A stretch of 64,000 nucleotides of DNA. Source: Cryomorphaceae bacterium (GTDB taxonomy: Bacteria; Bacteroidota; Bacteroidia; Flavobacteriales_D; Sanyastnellaceae). Below are positions 34,614 through 42,206 of the stretch, one piece after another. The translations under genes were made by a program, and so were the position numbers. Positions within the stretch are counted from its first letter, which is position 1. Every line of letters begins with the position of its first letter. Where the stretch lies: assembly GCA_016124575.1 (NCBI GenBank), contig WGNM01000027.1, positions 1 through 64,000 of the forward strand. Reading direction: 5' to 3'. The notes beneath the pieces were generated by a model, which worked only from the letters and a program-made list of their open reading frames with translations, ran no database searches and was not told where the DNA came from.

Positions 34614-37600
34614 ATGAAACATTCTACGAGTGCTGCTTTGAGCAGTTTTGTGCGATGTACATGGACAAGCGTCACCGATTACGCAACGGTGGGACTTGTG
34701 ACTATTGCATTGTTAATGTCAACTTTTGTCTTTGGACAAGGATCTGTTCCTTCCAACGACCTTTGTTCAGGTGCGTTACCGATATTATGCGGTGAGCAAC
34801 TTGATGGAACTACTGAATTCGCGAATTCAGATGGTTTAGAGTTTTGTGGCAACACACCATTTGATCAAGTTGCTGGAGAGCCTGGTGTTTGGTTCAAGCA
34901 CGCTGGAACCAACGCTTTCGTTACACTAACTTTAGATGAAGCAGACAGCCAGGACAATTTCGACACTTTTGTTGGAGTGTACACGGGGTCATGTAACGAT
35001 TTGGTTTGTTTAACCGGAGATGATGATTCAGGCGTAGGTCTGAATTCTTCTGTTACTTTCCTTGGCGAATCTGGTGTTGAGTACTTTTTGTACGTTACCG
35101 GATGGGATCCGGATGGTGAGGCTGACGGAGACAACGGTCCTTTCAACTTCTCACTTAGCTGCGTTCCTGCTTGCTCACCTGAGATTACCATCTCATGTCC
35201 TGCAGACGTAACAGTAGAATGTGGAACAGACATTTCACCAGAATCACTTAACCTCCTTCCCCTAATCGACTCTAACGACTGCGTTGGAGATTTGACTATC
35301 ACATTTATGGATGATCAAATTTCGAACAACAGTTGTCCACTTGTGATTGCTAGAACGTGGATCGCTACAGATGGCGAAACCACTGAAATGTGTACTCAAA
35401 CCATTACTGTTCAGGACACTCAAGCTCCTGTATTTACGGCTTTCCCTGAAGACATGACCATCGAGTGTTTCGGTGGCGGCTTGGAAGAAGTTCTTTCATA
35501 TTTGGATGACAATGACGTTCAATTTCCTGAATTTACTGATAACTGTGGAGCAGAGCTTATCTATGAGCCTTTCTTGATCACAGAAGGTCTTGAGTGTCCG
35601 GTTGTTGCTATCTGCGGAAAGCAATTCACCGTTGTTGATGCTTGTGGAAACTCTGTTGAGCGTTTGTTCACAGTTACTATTACTGACTACACTGGTCCTG
35701 AGTTCTCAGCATTCGATGCTGAAGTACTTGTTTCTTGTTTAGAAGACGTACCTGGTCCAGAAAGCCTTACTGCTACTGACGCTTGTTCAGGAAGCGAGTT
35801 TGAAGTTGAGACATTTGAATCAAACACTGGTGAGTTGATCAATTCTTGTGATTTGAGCACTGCCTTTGGTCCTGGTGATGATTGGGCTTTGTGGTTGCCA
35901 TCATTGTACGATGCTGGTATCACTTCTTCTGCTAACTTCTTGTTCGATGCCAATGGCGGACATTTCGATCAGTTCATTGATGGAACTGCTCACATGTACG
36001 GAACAATCGTTAACGATGTTAACCCGAACGAATCATTCGTTGTTGATTTTTGGTTTGAAAATGCTGCAGACTGGGCTACATGGTCTGGACTTGGTCGCAA
36101 CGTTAAAGACGATCTAGGTTGCGCTGCAGATGGTAACTTGTTTGAGACCTACACTTACTACGAAATGGTAAATGGTTTCTCAACAATGACAGGTGCTGGC
36201 GATTTAGCTGGTAGCTCATTGTCGTTCTACCACATGCCTGATAGCTACTACTTCGGTCTTCAGATCGGTTTGGGTGCTAACAACAAAAACTGTGGTTACG
36301 GTCTTTCTGCATGGTTTACCTATGATGGTTTCATCAACGGAGAATGGATCGAAGGTCACGGTGACGTGAACGCTGATGCTTCATGTGAGCCTAACTTCAA
36401 CACTGACTGTGCAAACAACACTGAGTTCACTTACATCTACCGTGCGGTTGATGCTTGTGGAAATCCTAGTATTGCTTTCCAGACGATCATCGTTAATGAT
36501 GAAATCGCTCCAGAATTTGTTGACTTCCCTGCTGACATCACTGTTGATTGTCAGAACTACCCAGTTGAAATTCCAGAAGTATCTGCTGTTGACAACTGTA
36601 TTGGTGAAGTAACTATAATTTACCTTGGTGAAACTACAGCTGCTGGTGAGTGTGCAAACGAATTCGTTGTAACACATTCATGGGCTGCTTTCGATATTTG
36701 TGATAACCGCGCCGACATTTCTTGGAATGTAAACGTAGTTGACAACGAAGCTCCAGTAATGGAAGGACTTCCAGCTGCTGAAGTAACTGCTGAGTGTGAT
36801 GCTGTTCCAGCTGCACCAGAAGTAACTGCTACCGACAACTGTTCATTGGTTGATGCGATTGAATTGTCATTCGAAGAAAACATTCAAGAAGGAAACTGTG
36901 TTGGAAACTACACAATCATCCGTGTTTGGTCAGCAACTGACGAATGTGGCAACACATCTGATTTCACGCAAGTGATCAATGTTCAAGACACAACGGCTCC
37001 TACTTTTGACGCTTATGTATACTACACTGCAATCCCTTGTGAGGATGTTGATGCTTACACATTGACAGCGTCTGACAACTGCGGATCAGCTTCTGTTGAA
37101 ATCATTGAAGAAGTTCTTCAATCTGGTGGATGTATGGGCGTATTGTACCGTGTTTATGAGGCTACTGATGAGTGTGGAAACGTTTCTAGCGTTGAGCAAT
37201 ACATCACAATCACCGACACTACAGCGCCTTCGTTGGTAAACGTTCCTGAAGACATGACTGTTGAGTGTTCTGATGTTTCTATGAATGATGACGGTTATTT
37301 CTTCTCTGCTGGTGACGTTTACGGTGTAGACAACTGCGCTAATGAAGTTACCATCACCTATTCTGAATCAGTTCAGGAAGACGGAGACGATTGTCCACAA
37401 TCTTATATCATTGTTCGTACTTGGGTTGCTACCGATTACTGTGAGCATGAAACTACAGACGAGCAAATCGTTACTGTTATTGATACTACTTCTCCTGAAT
37501 TCGTTGAATTCCCTGGTGATCTAATTGTTGAGTGTTCTGACGAATTCCCAGCTGTTGTTTACCCAATCGGTGTTGACAACTGTGACGAATCAGTAGAAAT

Positions 37601-40600
37601 CGTATTGACTGAAGAAATCGAAGACGGTGATTGTCCTGCTGAGTACATACTACGTCGCATCTTCCGTGGATTCGATGATTGTGGTAACGAAGTAATGGGT
37701 GTTCAGACTATCAACTTCGTTGATACTCAAGCTCCTTTCTTCACTGCTGTTCCAGACGCAATGACTATTGAATGTAACACCGATATCCCAGCTTCAGAAG
37801 CATTTGCATCTGATTTGTGTTCTGATGTTACTGTATCATACTCTGACGCTTATGCAGACAACGGATCTTGTCCACAAGAATACTACATGCTTCGCACATT
37901 CGTAGCGATTGATGCATGTGGAAATTCTGCTGAAGCAACTCAATTGATTCACATCGTAGACACCACAGCACCAATATTTGATGCTTACGAAGTGTCTATC
38001 TCAATGCCATGTGATAACATCGAAGTACTTCTATTGACTGCTACAGACAACTGTGGTAACGTAGAAGTTTCTTACAACGATACTCAGGTTTCAGGTGGTT
38101 GTGCAGGTCACATCATCCGCGACTTCGTTGCAGTTGATGAGTGTGGTAACGAAGCTTACGCTCAGCAAGTAATCATTCTTGTTGATGAAGTAGCTCCAGT
38201 TATTACTGCTGGTCCTGCCGATATGGTTATCGAGTGTGATCAAGAAGTACCTGGTTGTAACGTAGAATTGATTTCTTACGAAGACAACTGTACTGAAGTA
38301 GAAGTATCATGTGCTGATGTTGTAGCTGCTGGCGATTGTCCACAGGAATACACCATCACCCGCACTTACACTGCTGAAGACAACTGTGGAAACACTTCAA
38401 CTTACGTTCAGACTATCAGTGTTGTTGATACAACAGCACCATACTTTGAATTTGTTGCTCAGAGTGTTACAATTGAATGTGATCAAGATGTACCAGCTCC
38501 AGCTGCTGAAGTTGGTGACAACTGCGGAGATGCAACATGGACTGTTTCGGGTGTTACTACTCCTGGAGAATGTGATAGCGAATACGTAATGGTACGCACT
38601 TACACTGCTACTGATGCTTGTGGAAACACATCAACAGAAGAGCAAGTGATCACCGTTGTTGACACAACAGCTCCTGAGTTCACATTTGTACCAGGTCCTG
38701 TTACTTTGGAATGCGATCAGGAAATGCCTGCACCATCTGCGACAGCAACCGACAACTGCAGTGAACCTGTAGTTTCACATGTTGACGTTGTTGTACCAGG
38801 TCAGTGTGCAAACGAGTACACAGTTGTACGCACTTACACAGCTACGGATGCTTGTGGAAATGTTGCTACAGCAGAGCAATCTGTTAGCTTCATTGACACT
38901 ACGGCACCTGTATTTGATGCTTACACTATTTTCAACCAGATTCAGTGCGATGAGGCCTTGGATTTTCCAATGCTTACAGCCACTGATAACTGCGGTGAAG
39001 TAACCGTTACTTGCATCTACACACCAGTATCTGGTGGTTGCGCCGGAAACATCATTCGTGATTGTGTAGCTACTGATGCTTGTGGGAACACAACAACTGC
39101 TCAGCAAATCTTCCAATTGGTTGACAATACTGCGCCAGTATTTGTTTCAGGTCCTGCAGACATGATCATTGAATGTGGAAACGATGTACCGGGTTGTGAT
39201 GTGGAATCTGTAGTTGTTGAAGACAACTGTACAGCTTTCGAAGTAACATGTGCAGATGTAGTAGTTGCTGGCGATTGTCCTGCAGAATACACCATCACAC
39301 GCACCTACACTGCGATTGATAACTGCATGAACATGTCTACTTACGTTCAGACCATCAGTGTTGTTGATACAACAATGCCTTGGATTGAGTACGTAGGTGC
39401 AGATGCTACCATCGAATGTGATCAAGCAATTCCAGCTGCTGAAGCTTTGGTTGGCGACAACTGTGGCGATGCAACATGGACATCAGCTGATGCAATCATC
39501 GCTGGTGAGTGTGCAAACGAGTACACACTTTTACGCACTTACACTGCCACTGACGAATGTGGAAACACAAACTCAGCAGTTCAAACAATATACGTTGTAG
39601 ACACTACTGCACCATACTTTGTATCGGTTGCGCCAAGTGTAACCATTGAATGTGATCAAGATATGCCAGTTCCAGCAGCTGAGGTTGCTGACAACTGTGG
39701 AGATGCTACATGGACAGTTTCTGGAGTAATAACTCCAGGACAGTGTGCAAATGAATACGTAATGGTTCGCACTTACACTGCTACTGATGCTTGTGGAAAC
39801 ACAGCAACTACTGAGCAAGTGATCACCGTTGTAGATACAACAGCACCGTTCTTCATCTCTGTTGAGCCAAGCGTAACCATAGAGTGTGATGAAGACATGC
39901 CTGCTCCAGCTGCTGAGGTTGGTGACAACTGCGGAGATGCTACATGGACAGTTTCGGGTGTTACAACTCCAGGTGAGTGTGCAAACGAATATGTTATGGT
40001 TCGCACCTATGTAGCAAGTGATGCATGTGGAAACACAACTAGTGCTACACAAACCATCACGGTTATTGATACAACTGCACCAATCTTCTCGTTTGTTGCA
40101 CCAAGCGTTACCATTCAGTGTGATCAGGAATTGCCGGCTCCAGCGGCTCAGGTGACCGACAACTGCGGTGATGCAACATGGACAGTTTCAGGTGTTACAA
40201 CGCCTGGAGCATGTGCAAATGAATATGTAATGGTTCGTACTTATGTGGCTGTTGATGCATGTGGAAACATGACAGAAGCAACACAAACAATCACTGTTGT
40301 CGACACCGTTGCTCCTGAGTTTATGGAGTATGGCGATAGCGTTACAATAGAGTGCACAATGGAGATTCCAGCACCTTATTCATACGTTATTGACAACTGT
40401 GATGAGCTAGTTGATGTTGTTGTAACTGATGTTACTGCAGCAGGTGATTGTCCACAAGAGTACACCATCACGCGTACCTACACTGCAACTGATGATTGTG
40501 GCAACAGCTCATCTGTACAGCAAGTGATCACGGTTGTAGATACTACAGCACCAATGTTCACTTCAGTTCCTCAGAACAACGAGATCAGCTGCGATGCGAA

Positions 40601-42149
40601 TCTTCCAACAGAAGAAGCAACAGCAACTGACAACTGTGGAATTGTTACAGTTATGTCATCTGACCAGATCATTCCTGGACAGTGTGCTAACGCATACACA
40701 GTAGTTCGTACTTGGGTAGCAACAGACGAGTGTGGTAACTCTAGCGAAGCTGAGACCATGTACTACGTTTACGACAACCAAGCACCAGTATTCACTACAG
40801 TGTTGACGGATGTTGTTGCAGAGTGTGCAGACGAAGTTCCGGCAGCTCCTGAAGTGGCGGCTACCGACAACTGTGGAGAAGTGCTTATTTCAATGACAAG
40901 CTCAATAGAGTTTGATGATTGTGGTAACTACTATGCAGTATATACTTACTACGCTGAAGACGCTTGCGGAAATCAGGCGGATCCAATTTTCTACACCGTA
41001 ACCGTTCTTGACGAAACAGCACCTGTTTTTGATCAAGAGTTAGAAGCGAATGTAGTTCTAGATTGTACAGAGGAAGTTCCAGCTGCACCAGTTTGCACTG
41101 CAACCGACAACTGTGCAGGTGAAGTAGAAGTTAGCTACGAAGAAGTGCTACTTGGAGATCTTCCTGCTGAAGGAAGCATTGCTGATTGTTTGGCATTGAC
41201 TCCTGCTGCATACGAAGATGGCGAGACATGCAATGGACTAGACCCTTGGAGTTTGATATTGTTTAGTTTTGATGATGCTGATGCAGTATTGTATAGCTCT
41301 TTAGAAGTGAACTTTGTTCAATACCCTGATGGTTCAGCAACATTAACAGGTTCTGTTGTTCGCAACGATGATCCATCTCGTGGTTGGGACATCAGCGTAA
41401 ACTTCGCAAACGGAATGGATTGGGCATCTTGGTCAACCCAAGCTTTCCCTACAGGATACAAAGATGATTGTAACCTTTCAGGTGACAATCACCTTGATTG
41501 GACTTACTACATCATGCAAGCAGGAGCTACACTTACTGGATGGGGAGCAAACGCAGGTTCTACTTTGAACCTTGCTCACGCGCCTAGTAACCTATACTAC
41601 GGTTACCAAGTTGGTGTTGCAGCAAACAACGTTAACGTAGACTACGGTAGCGGTGGCTGGTTCACTTACAGTGGTTTGTACCAAGGTAACAGCGTTTCTG
41701 GAGCTGGTGACTTCGCATTCGATCACGATTGCTGTCCGCGTTACTCAATCGAGCGCACTTGGTGTGCATCTGATTGTACAGGTAACGAGACCTGTTTCAC
41801 ACAGACCATTTCTTTCGAAGATCTTGGCTTGACTCCTCCAGCAGTTGGTGGTGATTTCCAAGAAGTGACTGTTGCGAAAGGTGAAGACTTCGTTTTGACG
41901 AAAGTTCAACCTAACCCAGCGTACGACAACACGATGATCGAATTCTACAGCGACAAGAACAACACAGTTGTACTTGAAGTATTGGATATGAGCGGACGTC
42001 GCGTTGCTACCTTGTACGAAGGAACAGTTATCAAAGGTCAGACATACCGCAACACGTTGAATGCAGCTCTAATGCAGAGTGGTGTTTACACTGTACGTTT
42101 GTCTTCTTTGACTCAATCAGCACACGCTAAGTTGATTGTAACTCGATAA
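34614..42149 (+). CDS. Giant secreted HYR-repeat protein with T9SS sorting domain
   Basis: 2511 residues. A long N-terminus with a signal peptide (core near 25-40) is followed by a pre-peptidase-like domain (about 44-185). About 23 HYR/Ig-like repeats of 70-80 residues run from about 190 to 2400. A typical unit reads TIECDQ..PAP..TDNCG..G.C.NEY..RTYTATDACGN..QTITVVDTTAP, with four Cys likely forming disulfides. Two homologous ~190-residue domains interrupt the array at 405-600 and 2187-2375. The C-terminus (about 2430-2511) is a T9SS type A sorting domain. Probably a surface adhesin or matrix protein. It has its own strong promoter and terminator. Confidence 0.92.
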   Translation: MKHSTSAALSSFVRCTWTSVTDYATVGLVTIALLMSTFVFGQGSVPSNDLCSGALPILCGEQLDGTTEFANSDGLEFCGNTPFDQVAGEPGVWFKHAGTNAFVTLTLDEADSQDNFDTFVGVYTGSCNDLVCLTGDDDSGVGLNSSVTFLGESGVEYFLYVTGWDPDGEADGDNGPFNFSLSCVPACSPEITISCPADVTVECGTDISPESLNLLPLIDSNDCVGDLTITFMDDQISNNSCPLVIARTWIATDGETTEMCTQTITVQDTQAPVFTAFPEDMTIECFGGGLEEVLSYLDDNDVQFPEFTDNCGAELIYEPFLITEGLECPVVAICGKQFTVVDACGNSVERLFTVTITDYTGPEFSAFDAEVLVSCLEDVPGPESLTATDACSGSEFEVETFESNTGELINSCDLSTAFGPGDDWALWLPSLYDAGITSSANFLFDANGGHFDQFIDGTAHMYGTIVNDVNPNESFVVDFWFENAADWATWSGLGRNVKDDLGCAADGNLFETYTYYEMVNGFSTMTGAGDLAGSSLSFYHMPDSYYFGLQIGLGANNKNCGYGLSAWFTYDGFINGEWIEGHGDVNADASCEPNFNTDCANNTEFTYIYRAVDACGNPSIAFQTIIVNDEIAPEFVDFPADITVDCQNYPVEIPEVSAVDNCIGEVTIIYLGETTAAGECANEFVVTHSWAAFDICDNRADISWNVNVVDNEAPVMEGLPAAEVTAECDAVPAAPEVTATDNCSLVDAIELSFEENIQEGNCVGNYTIIRVWSATDECGNTSDFTQVINVQDTTAPTFDAYVYYTAIPCEDVDAYTLTASDNCGSASVEIIEEVLQSGGCMGVLYRVYEATDECGNVSSVEQYITITDTTAPSLVNVPEDMTVECSDVSMNDDGYFFSAGDVYGVDNCANEVTITYSESVQEDGDDCPQSYIIVRTWVATDYCEHETTDEQIVTVIDTTSPEFVEFPGDLIVECSDEFPAVVYPIGVDNCDESVEIVLTEEIEDGDCPAEYILRRIFRGFDDCGNEVMGVQTINFVDTQAPFFTAVPDAMTIECNTDIPASEAFASDLCSDVTVSYSDAYADNGSCPQEYYMLRTFVAIDACGNSAEATQLIHIVDTTAPIFDAYEVSISMPCDNIEVLLLTATDNCGNVEVSYNDTQVSGGCAGHIIRDFVAVDECGNEAYAQQVIILVDEVAPVITAGPADMVIECDQEVPGCNVELISYEDNCTEVEVSCADVVAAGDCPQEYTITRTYTAEDNCGNTSTYVQTISVVDTTAPYFEFVAQSVTIECDQDVPAPAAEVGDNCGDATWTVSGVTTPGECDSEYVMVRTYTATDACGNTSTEEQVITVVDTTAPEFTFVPGPVTLECDQEMPAPSATATDNCSEPVVSHVDVVVPGQCANEYTVVRTYTATDACGNVATAEQSVSFIDTTAPVFDAYTIFNQIQCDEALDFPMLTATDNCGEVTVTCIYTPVSGGCAGNIIRDCVATDACGNTTTAQQIFQLVDNTAPVFVSGPADMIIECGNDVPGCDVESVVVEDNCTAFEVTCADVVVAGDCPAEYTITRTYTAIDNCMNMSTYVQTISVVDTTMPWIEYVGADATIECDQAIPAAEALVGDNCGDATWTSADAIIAGECANEYTLLRTYTATDECGNTNSAVQTIYVVDTTAPYFVSVAPSVTIECDQDMPVPAAEVADNCGDATWTVSGVITPGQCANEYVMVRTYTATDACGNTATTEQVITVVDTTAPFFISVEPSVTIECDEDMPAPAAEVGDNCGDATWTVSGVTTPGECANEYVMVRTYVASDACGNTTSATQTITVIDTTAPIFSFVAPSVTIQCDQELPAPAAQVTDNCGDATWTVSGVTTPGACANEYVMVRTYVAVDACGNMTEATQTITVVDTVAPEFMEYGDSVTIECTMEIPAPYSYVIDNCDELVDVVVTDVTAAGDCPQEYTITRTYTATDDCGNSSSVQQVITVVDTTAPMFTSVPQNNEISCDANLPTEEATATDNCGIVTVMSSDQIIPGQCANAYTVVRTWVATDECGNSSEAETMYYVYDNQAPVFTTVLTDVVAECADEVPAAPEVAATDNCGEVLISMTSSIEFDDCGNYYAVYTYYAEDACGNQADPIFYTVTVLDETAPVFDQELEANVVLDCTEEVPAAPVCTATDNCAGEVEVSYEEVLLGDLPAEGSIADCLALTPAAYEDGETCNGLDPWSLILFSFDDADAVLYSSLEVNFVQYPDGSATLTGSVVRNDDPSRGWDISVNFANGMDWASWSTQAFPTGYKDDCNLSGDNHLDWTYYIMQAGATLTGWGANAGSTLNLAHAPSNLYYGYQVGVAANNVNVDYGSGGWFTYSGLYQGNSVSGAGDFAFDHDCCPRYSIERTWCASDCTGNETCFTQTISFEDLGLTPPAVGGDFQEVTVAKGEDFVLTKVQPNPAYDNTMIEFYSDKNNTVVLEVLDMSGRRVATLYEGTVIKGQTYRNTLNAALMQSGVYTVRLSSLTQSAHAKLIVTR
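35814..36400 (+). other. Non-repeat domain copy 1 in the giant protein
   Basis: About residues 401-595, inserted in the third repeat. Key parts are DDWALWLPS, GTAHMYGTIVND, VVDFWFENAADWATWS, TGAGDLAGSSLSFYHMPD, YYFGLQIGLGANNKN and GYGLSAWFTYDGF. It matches copy 2 at 41171 along its length. Beta-rich; function unknown. Confidence 0.75.
41171..41745 (+). other. Non-repeat domain copy 2 in the giant protein
   Basis: About residues 2187-2376, inserted in the last repeat. The parts that match copy 1 are GSATLTGSVVRNDDPSRGW, VNFANGMDWASWS, GANAGSTLNLAHAPSNLYYG and GYQVGVAANNVN with GGWFTYSGLY. The two copies bracket nearly the whole repeat array. Confidence 0.75.
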
Positions 42150-42168
42150 TTAGAATCTCAATAAAAAG

Positions 42169-42206
42169 AGAGGCTGTTCTGAAAAGAGCAGCCTCTTTTT
42201 TTTTTG
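42169..42206 (+). terminator. Strong Rho-independent terminator
   Basis: AGAGGCTGTTCT (42169-42180), loop GAAA, AGAGCAGCCTCT (42185-42196), with one G-T pair, then a run of ten T. It ends the giant gene's transcript 20 bases after its stop. Confidence 0.92.

Follow-up and report, generated by a model that had tools for sequence, protein, structure and literature searches.

The usual view of a giant repeat protein is that of an inert stalk which carries an adhesive tip. HycP of Clostridium cellulolyticum consists of a CBM3 and 23 HYR modules of about 75 aa and showed no role in the adherence of cells to cellulose, and in the available text of that study the function of bacterial HYR modules is stated as unknown (PMC3723904). 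According to the accessible part of a survey of fibrillar adhesins, adhesive domains should lie well away from the anchor, their position being variable in Bacteroidetes (PMC8286594); the survey works with lists of 82 stalk and 27 adhesive families.

The protein described here is encoded in a stretch of 64,000 nucleotides from a Cryomorphaceae bacterium (contig WGNM01000027.1, positions 1 to 64,000; hereafter the window). It resembles HycP in joining a long HYR array to a different, binding-type module; unlike it, it has a homologous pair of end modules and a tail of the type IX secretion system (T9SS), HycP having a single C-terminal cellulose-binding module, no such pair and, in the text available, no T9SS tail reported (PMC3723904). 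With the fibrillar adhesin-like proteins it shares the build of tandem stalk domains (20 HYR_4C stretches) plus a non-stalk module, and one Por_Secre_tail protein is mentioned in the excerpt of the survey; it differs from them in the homologous modules at both ends, the fixed C-terminal distance of the second and the absence of the module from the domain families searched here (PMC8286594). No adhesive Pfam domain was found by name among the families matched by the open reading frame (ORF), its head or the modules; the protein is said here to work like a fibrillar adhesin and is not called a member. The HYR_4C family (PF23237) covers the stalk repeat alone, and the inserted modules fall outside it. 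Among the literature matches listed, none dealt with these modules or with HYR repeats as T9SS cargo.

The gene and its pair of inserted modules

The features of the gene are collected in Table 1. A sequence-only reading had described the product as a giant T9SS cargo, and both a Por_Secre_tail over the cut-off and a HYR_4C array (318.7 bits in the Pfam scan) were found in the ORF. The tail scored 33.4 bits with PF18962 (cut-off 27) and 33.7 bits with TIGR04183 (cut-off 23), and was recovered at aa 2433-2509 with E 8.1e-10 in a genome-wide tail search. The same genome contains SprA (TIGR04189, 2452 bits) and at least 150 T9SS-A tails (150 of 212 candidates scored), so that export by T9SS is moderately supported. 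The Gln directly after the probable cleavage site is consistent with the Q-rule of Bacteroidetes, as given in the accessible text of the source (PMC5837995). In a relative, G047, SprA occupies two adjacent open frames of 1519 and 952 aa (G047:C2:2716693-2723858), a split which is apparently a frameshift or an assembly error.

Table 1. Parts of the HYR-repeat gene, with positions in the window
Feature	Position	Strand	Basis
Giant HYR-repeat T9SS cargo, 2511 aa	34614..42149	+	open frame; PF23237 in 20 stretches; PF18962 and TIGR04183 tail
Probable signal peptide, aa 1-41, ends ..STFVFG before Gln42	34614..34736	+	by eye from sequence
N-terminal head, aa 42-186, ~145 aa	34737..35171	+	without Pfam match (aa 43-186 scanned)
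HYR repeat hosting D1 (approximate limits)	35679..36500	+	repeat anchors; aligned host halves
Module D1 (N-type), conserved core Cys412-Cys591	35847..36386	+	alignment, predicted model
HYR_4C stalk between modules, 21 repeats counted	36501..41003	+	Pfam HYR_4C, repeat count
HYR repeat hosting D2 (approximate limits)	41004..41822	+	repeat anchors; aligned host halves
Module D2 (C-type), conserved core Cys2192-Cys2373	41187..41732	+	alignment, predicted model
T9SS type A C-terminal sorting domain, aa 2433-2509	41910..42140	+	PF18962 E 5.5e-8; TIGR04183 E 2.7e-8
Terminator-like hairpin and T-run, directly 3' of gene	42163..42202	+	consensus match only

By eye, about two HYR-like repeats separate the head from the repeat that hosts D1. 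Two terminator-like sites were found in the stretch against 0.3 expected per shuffle, by consensus match only. Counterparts of D1 and D2, 96% and 98% identical, lie on two stretches (L007 and L009) of one Flavobacteriales metagenome-assembled genome, with the same neighbouring genes.

The two domains of about 190 residues, proposed from the letters alone to be mutually alike, are homologous. Their alignment of 179 columns has 36% identity and scores 100 bits, BLASTP gave E 5e-31 in the pairwise comparison and 4e-28 against the whole protein, and the Smith-Waterman score was 292, compared with 39 +/- 7 (maximum 85) in 1000 shuffles. The rest of the protein gave no further match to D1 or D2 at E < 0.1. 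All the blocks on which the likeness had been noticed are present, WATWS (aa 487), SSLSFYHMPD (534) and GLGANN (552) in D1, and WASWS (aa 2270), STLNLAHAPS (2316) and GVAANN (2334) in D2. The proposed insertion of each module in an HYR repeat also held, the host half VP.P...A.D.C standing before the module and ..A.D..GN.. after it. The alignment of the host halves showed that the insertion site is identical in both, after the second Cys of the four-Cys repeat. The module stands before what we take as the third Cys of the host repeat; in D2, Cys2373-Cys2374 would be the closing Cys of the module followed by the third Cys of the host.

Family searches and predicted fold

The view that the domain belongs to no named family holds in the libraries that were searched: no credible match of the modules to any Pfam, NCBIfam or PHROG family, nor to a PDB sequence, was obtained. 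For Pfam, NCBIfam and PDB this also covers 40 aligned module members, the PHROGs queries being D1, D2, the copy from genome G296 and the whole protein. Pyocin L2, which appeared at E 0.63 in the PDB sequence search, was taken as a chance match. Plasmid records gave no match in tblastn with the G296 copy, and BFVD searched with the D1 model returned nothing credible. The first alignment, of two rows, was also run on genome contigs and returned 3 loci. Similar domains may exist in secreted proteins of other phyla; the profile searches here covered genomes of the window's own phylum.

The best model of D1 (ma05ae79d6a85) had moderate confidence, with pLDDT 73.1 and pTM 0.74 (33.0-58.5 pLDDT for the other four), and the best model of D2 with its host repeat (m7779c51ff725) was weak, with pLDDT 61.8 and pTM 0.56 (next 44.6); both were built from the same six sequences. 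The strand order in the module is the same in the two models, and the structural neighbours are partly the same barrels, which agrees with alike folds of the two copies within the limits of the weak D2 model. For D1 these neighbours were a designed barrel (Z 8.9), the lipocalin-like BcnB (7.8), PagP (7.7) and streptavidins (6.5-7.0; 3.1-3.5 A over about 105-111 residues), and for D2 designed barrels (8.8 and 8.6), CarO (8.5), the haem-binding domain HtaA (7.2), which is barrel-like, and streptavidins (5.7-6.4), it being understood that Z values of 6-9 can reflect only a common arrangement. BcnB was absent among the matches listed for D2, and HtaA was found neither among the best 50 rows for D1 nor in the PDB sequence search. 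Foldseek gave nothing at E <= 1e-3 for either model; most of the best 50 rows for D1 were streptavidin entries, and the first rows for D2 were unrelated folds.

From these models the module is likely a small antiparallel beta-barrel of avidin- or lipocalin-like shape, a fold that is moderately supported. Membership of the avidin family was considered and set aside, as hhalign gave a probability of 0.1% against streptavidin, and the fit to designed barrels and PagP is as good or better; Pfam found no avidin match at E <= 1 in the 40 module members. The models resemble avidin and streptavidin in shape, but the module is about 60 residues longer, carries a Cys pair and has no detectable sequence kinship with them.

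Distribution, layout and divergence of the end copies

The profile search found other copies in the window's own family and beyond. The window's genome has six copies in four ORFs. In the own family (f1), where the search gave at least 150 matches, the module occurs in 90 of 114 genomes, 39 of the 50 good-quality ones and 19 of 21 genera. In a sample of the phylum it was detected in at least 7 of 395 genomes, the own one included (at least 6 with the first profile), both tallies being lower bounds with at most 8 candidates scored per genome. Elsewhere it was present in 9 of 118 genomes of family f8, that of G429, and in 2 of 27 of the family of G296. Outside its own family the module is rare at this search sensitivity.

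The pair recurs in HYR proteins of many relatives, as the sequence-only reading had suggested looking for. The least biased count is a census of three genomes, the window's own together with the near-closed relatives G046 and G047, which were chosen for having 1 and 2 contigs; these two are of one genus and rich in copies. It gave 30 matches in 17 ORFs, 10 of which are bracketed at both ends; in three (684, 952 and 2007 aa) a single C-type module precedes a dockerin-like tail, two (5806 and 4966 aa) have two strong, divergent N-side copies that form a clade of their own, and two are cut by contig ends, the types being assigned by the tree and the tails by eye except that of the 2007-aa protein, which has Pfam support. 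The pair is not obligatory, 5 of the 17 being unbracketed.

The spacing was examined in 29 complete bracketed ORFs, which are no random sample, most having been chosen for being paired: of a first set of 20 stretches, 19 were taken for a listed pair and 1 for a large ORF, and those of a second set for a large ORF with one listed copy, as outliers or, in two cases, for a listed pair. The end of the C module is 134 +/- 7 aa (124-159) away from the C-terminus; the first residue of the N module, numbered from the beginning of the open frame, is 417 +/- 287 (67-1389). Between the two there are 15-23 HYR repeats in 28 of the 29 ORFs, those from family f1. In the layout table, from which L059, L092, L093 and copies under 50 bits are excluded, none of the arrays contains a third copy above 50 bits. 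The heads that precede the N module vary, Pfam identifying Laminin_G_3 and NIDO and giving no match for three others; in the lineage with a laminin G (LamG) head the N module follows LamG, outside any HYR repeat.

The tails vary as well. The T9SS-A cut-off was reached in 6 of 10 relatives, namely in 5 of 5 of the main lineage, in the single one of G429 and in none of the 4 with a LamG head. The tails of these four (L010, L064, L067 and L069) are T9SS-A-like under the cut-off (21.8, 19.8 and 14.4 bits, and no match), and would represent either a divergent tail subtype or another export route. A dockerin- or EF-hand-like tail (CPxDFNxDGxxGxxDLL...) replaces the T9SS-A tail at L012:2158-2397, in the 2007- and 684-aa ORFs of L142 (G046) and in the 952-aa ORF of L145; EF-hand and Dockerin_1 came near the Pfam cut-off for L012 and the 2007-aa ORF, and this is possibly another sorting or attachment tail of the family.

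Several unusual arrangements were also observed. L143 (G046, 5806 aa) and L144 (G047, 4966 aa) appear by eye to be LamG-headed; each has about 50 HYR repeats and, on the N side, two divergent modules, and lacks a C-type. L143 has in addition a weak third module match at aa 1527-1610. On the minus strand of L011:1-8160 (contig C44 of the own genome; 2720 aa, cut by the contig end) a divergent module is combined with HYR repeats and other repeats, which we take to be SdrD-B-like, and a second, very divergent module-like stretch, LTEFADNTARITGSI, was noticed by eye. At L094:8094-8549 (G091) a 1401-aa ORF encodes an HYR protein that has a lone N-type module and ends in a CHU_C (T9SS type B) tail. 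In L147 (G552, family f8) modules stand in direct tandem near the N-terminus (aa 38-218 and 217-397), and no HYR repeat was found.

The mean identity between the two copies of one protein is 36% (27-44%), compared with 47% for N-N and 46% for C-C pairs between proteins. In 28 of 28 proteins, near-copies included (at 90% identity the N copies form 25 clusters and the C copies 26), each copy is nearer to a same-end copy elsewhere than to its own partner, and therefore the ends are specialised. The trees agree with the identity data that N and C types form separate lineages, the N/C label changing 2 times on the tree as compared with about 20.5 times after shuffling. The earlier picture of a stalk with matching modules at both ends thus stood as regards homology and position, but not as regards equivalence, the two modules not being interchangeable. 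Identical residues in at least 90% of both types are found at 22 positions (two C, four W, K, H, Q, N, D, P, A, F and eight G), which may form one shared site or just the core of the fold.

Most likely D1 and D2 derive from one ancestral module and have since specialised. In tree tests on groups named after the tree was seen, neither a single clade of all N copies (p 0.49) nor one of all C copies (p 0.52) was rejected within f1, and likewise a separate duplication in the LamG-headed lineage, with its N and C copies in one clade, was not rejected (p 0.535). Both end copies of G429 fall in the clade of the five copies of its family f8 with support 100/100, and a grouping of its N copy with those of f1, likewise defined in view of the tree, was rejected (AU p = 0.0018); the second tree excludes L089, L086, L059 and new copies under 50 bits. 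The bracketing in G429 looks as if it arose separately, the alternative being that gene conversion made its two copies alike.

Possible roles of the two ends

The recurrent two-ended layout suggests that each end of the stalk has its own job. The reading that we prefer, at a probability of about one half, is a T9SS-secreted surface stalk of fibrillar-adhesin-like build with a specialised barrel module for contact or binding at the tip and at the base. The protein would leave the cell by type IX secretion and stay attached to it through its C-terminal side, which we infer from the tail. From outside to inside, there would follow the variable head, D1, the stalk of about 20 HYR repeats, D2, the rest of an HYR repeat with a short linker, and the T9SS tail. 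Since the tail type would place the C-terminus at the cell, D2 would mark the base of the stalk, about 134 residues from the C-terminus, and D1, which follows the head, its outer end. Sitting in one loop of a stalk repeat, the module would bulge from the rod and leave it unbroken, its ends probably held by a bond between the conserved Cys residues. The base module may act on the cell surface, the matrix or neighbouring stalks, and the other near the tip, both types keeping one set of polar and aromatic positions. Binding of one and the same ligand or partner at both ends, the guess of the sequence-only reading, would be compatible with this picture. Homologous modules at both ends, one of them fixed by the tail, do not fit an adhesin with a binding tip only. 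The adhesive reading is weakened because HycP, with its cellulose-binding module, showed no role in adherence to cellulose in the published text available (PMC3723904).

Four other explanations are given here from the least to the most improbable. It is unlikely, but less so than the rest, that the modules bind nothing and are structural caps, by which the array is terminated or shielded from unravelling, proteolysis or lateral aggregation and its two ends are set. In favour are the location at the ends of the array, the insertion site common to both host repeats and the conserved Cys pair, and a C-type module also closes the short arrays of 4-5 repeats in the 684- and 952-aa proteins; however, the 5806- and 4966-aa proteins have two N-side copies and no C-type, the modules of L085, L147 and L148 (family f8) are in proteins without HYR repeats by the HYR model used, and the conserved polar K, H, Q, N and D exceed the obvious needs of a cap. 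An improbable explanation is that the C-type aids export or anchoring, through recognition, cleavage or attachment by T9SS, the N-type being a separate, perhaps adhesive, derivative. Few of the at least 150 T9SS-A tails of the genome are on module proteins (6 copies in 4 ORFs), and the tails after the C-type differ (T9SS-A, the divergent LamG-lineage form and dockerin-like), although the distance of 124-159 aa to the C-terminus is kept in all 29 complete bracketed ORFs and, in proteins with a C-type only, the module is 94-95 aa away from the C-terminus and is followed by a dockerin-like tail (two tails with Pfam support, the others by eye).

That the N module binds the C module of another molecule, alongside or on the next cell, and so builds fibres or a staggered layer, has little probability. 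The two ends do bear homologous yet consistently different forms, and the N-N and C-C identities correlate (r = 0.81), which is equally expected from shared descent; against such pairing, unpaired C-type proteins and the unpaired N-type of L094 exist. Hardly probable at all is a neutral by-product, in which duplication of a module-bearing repeat was followed by expansion of the array between the two modules, the ends being kept without selection for a two-ended function. Duplication of a repeat predicts the common insertion site, but such a history is difficult to reconcile with the separation of the types in 28 of 28 proteins without homogenisation, with the apparently separate bracketing pair in G429 and with the absence of a third copy above 50 bits within the arrays of the layout table.

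Starting from the preferred stalk with a specialised module at each end, it is tempting to speculate further, with odds hardly better than those of the export aid, that the modules represent an undescribed calycin-like barrel family of Bacteroidota surface proteins. Their N and C types would be complementary end connectors, the tip of one stalk meeting the base of another or both holding the same surface polymer, and would give an ordered HYR fibre or layer, for which bracketing would have evolved at least twice.

Across one bacterial family, two homologous modules that have specialised are found at the opposite ends of the stalk, a layout that may have more than one origin. The module itself is without an entry in the libraries searched (Pfam, NCBIfam and PHROGs), and its two copies of about 190 aa, expressible alone, provide a definite target for the study of what the base of such a stalk does.
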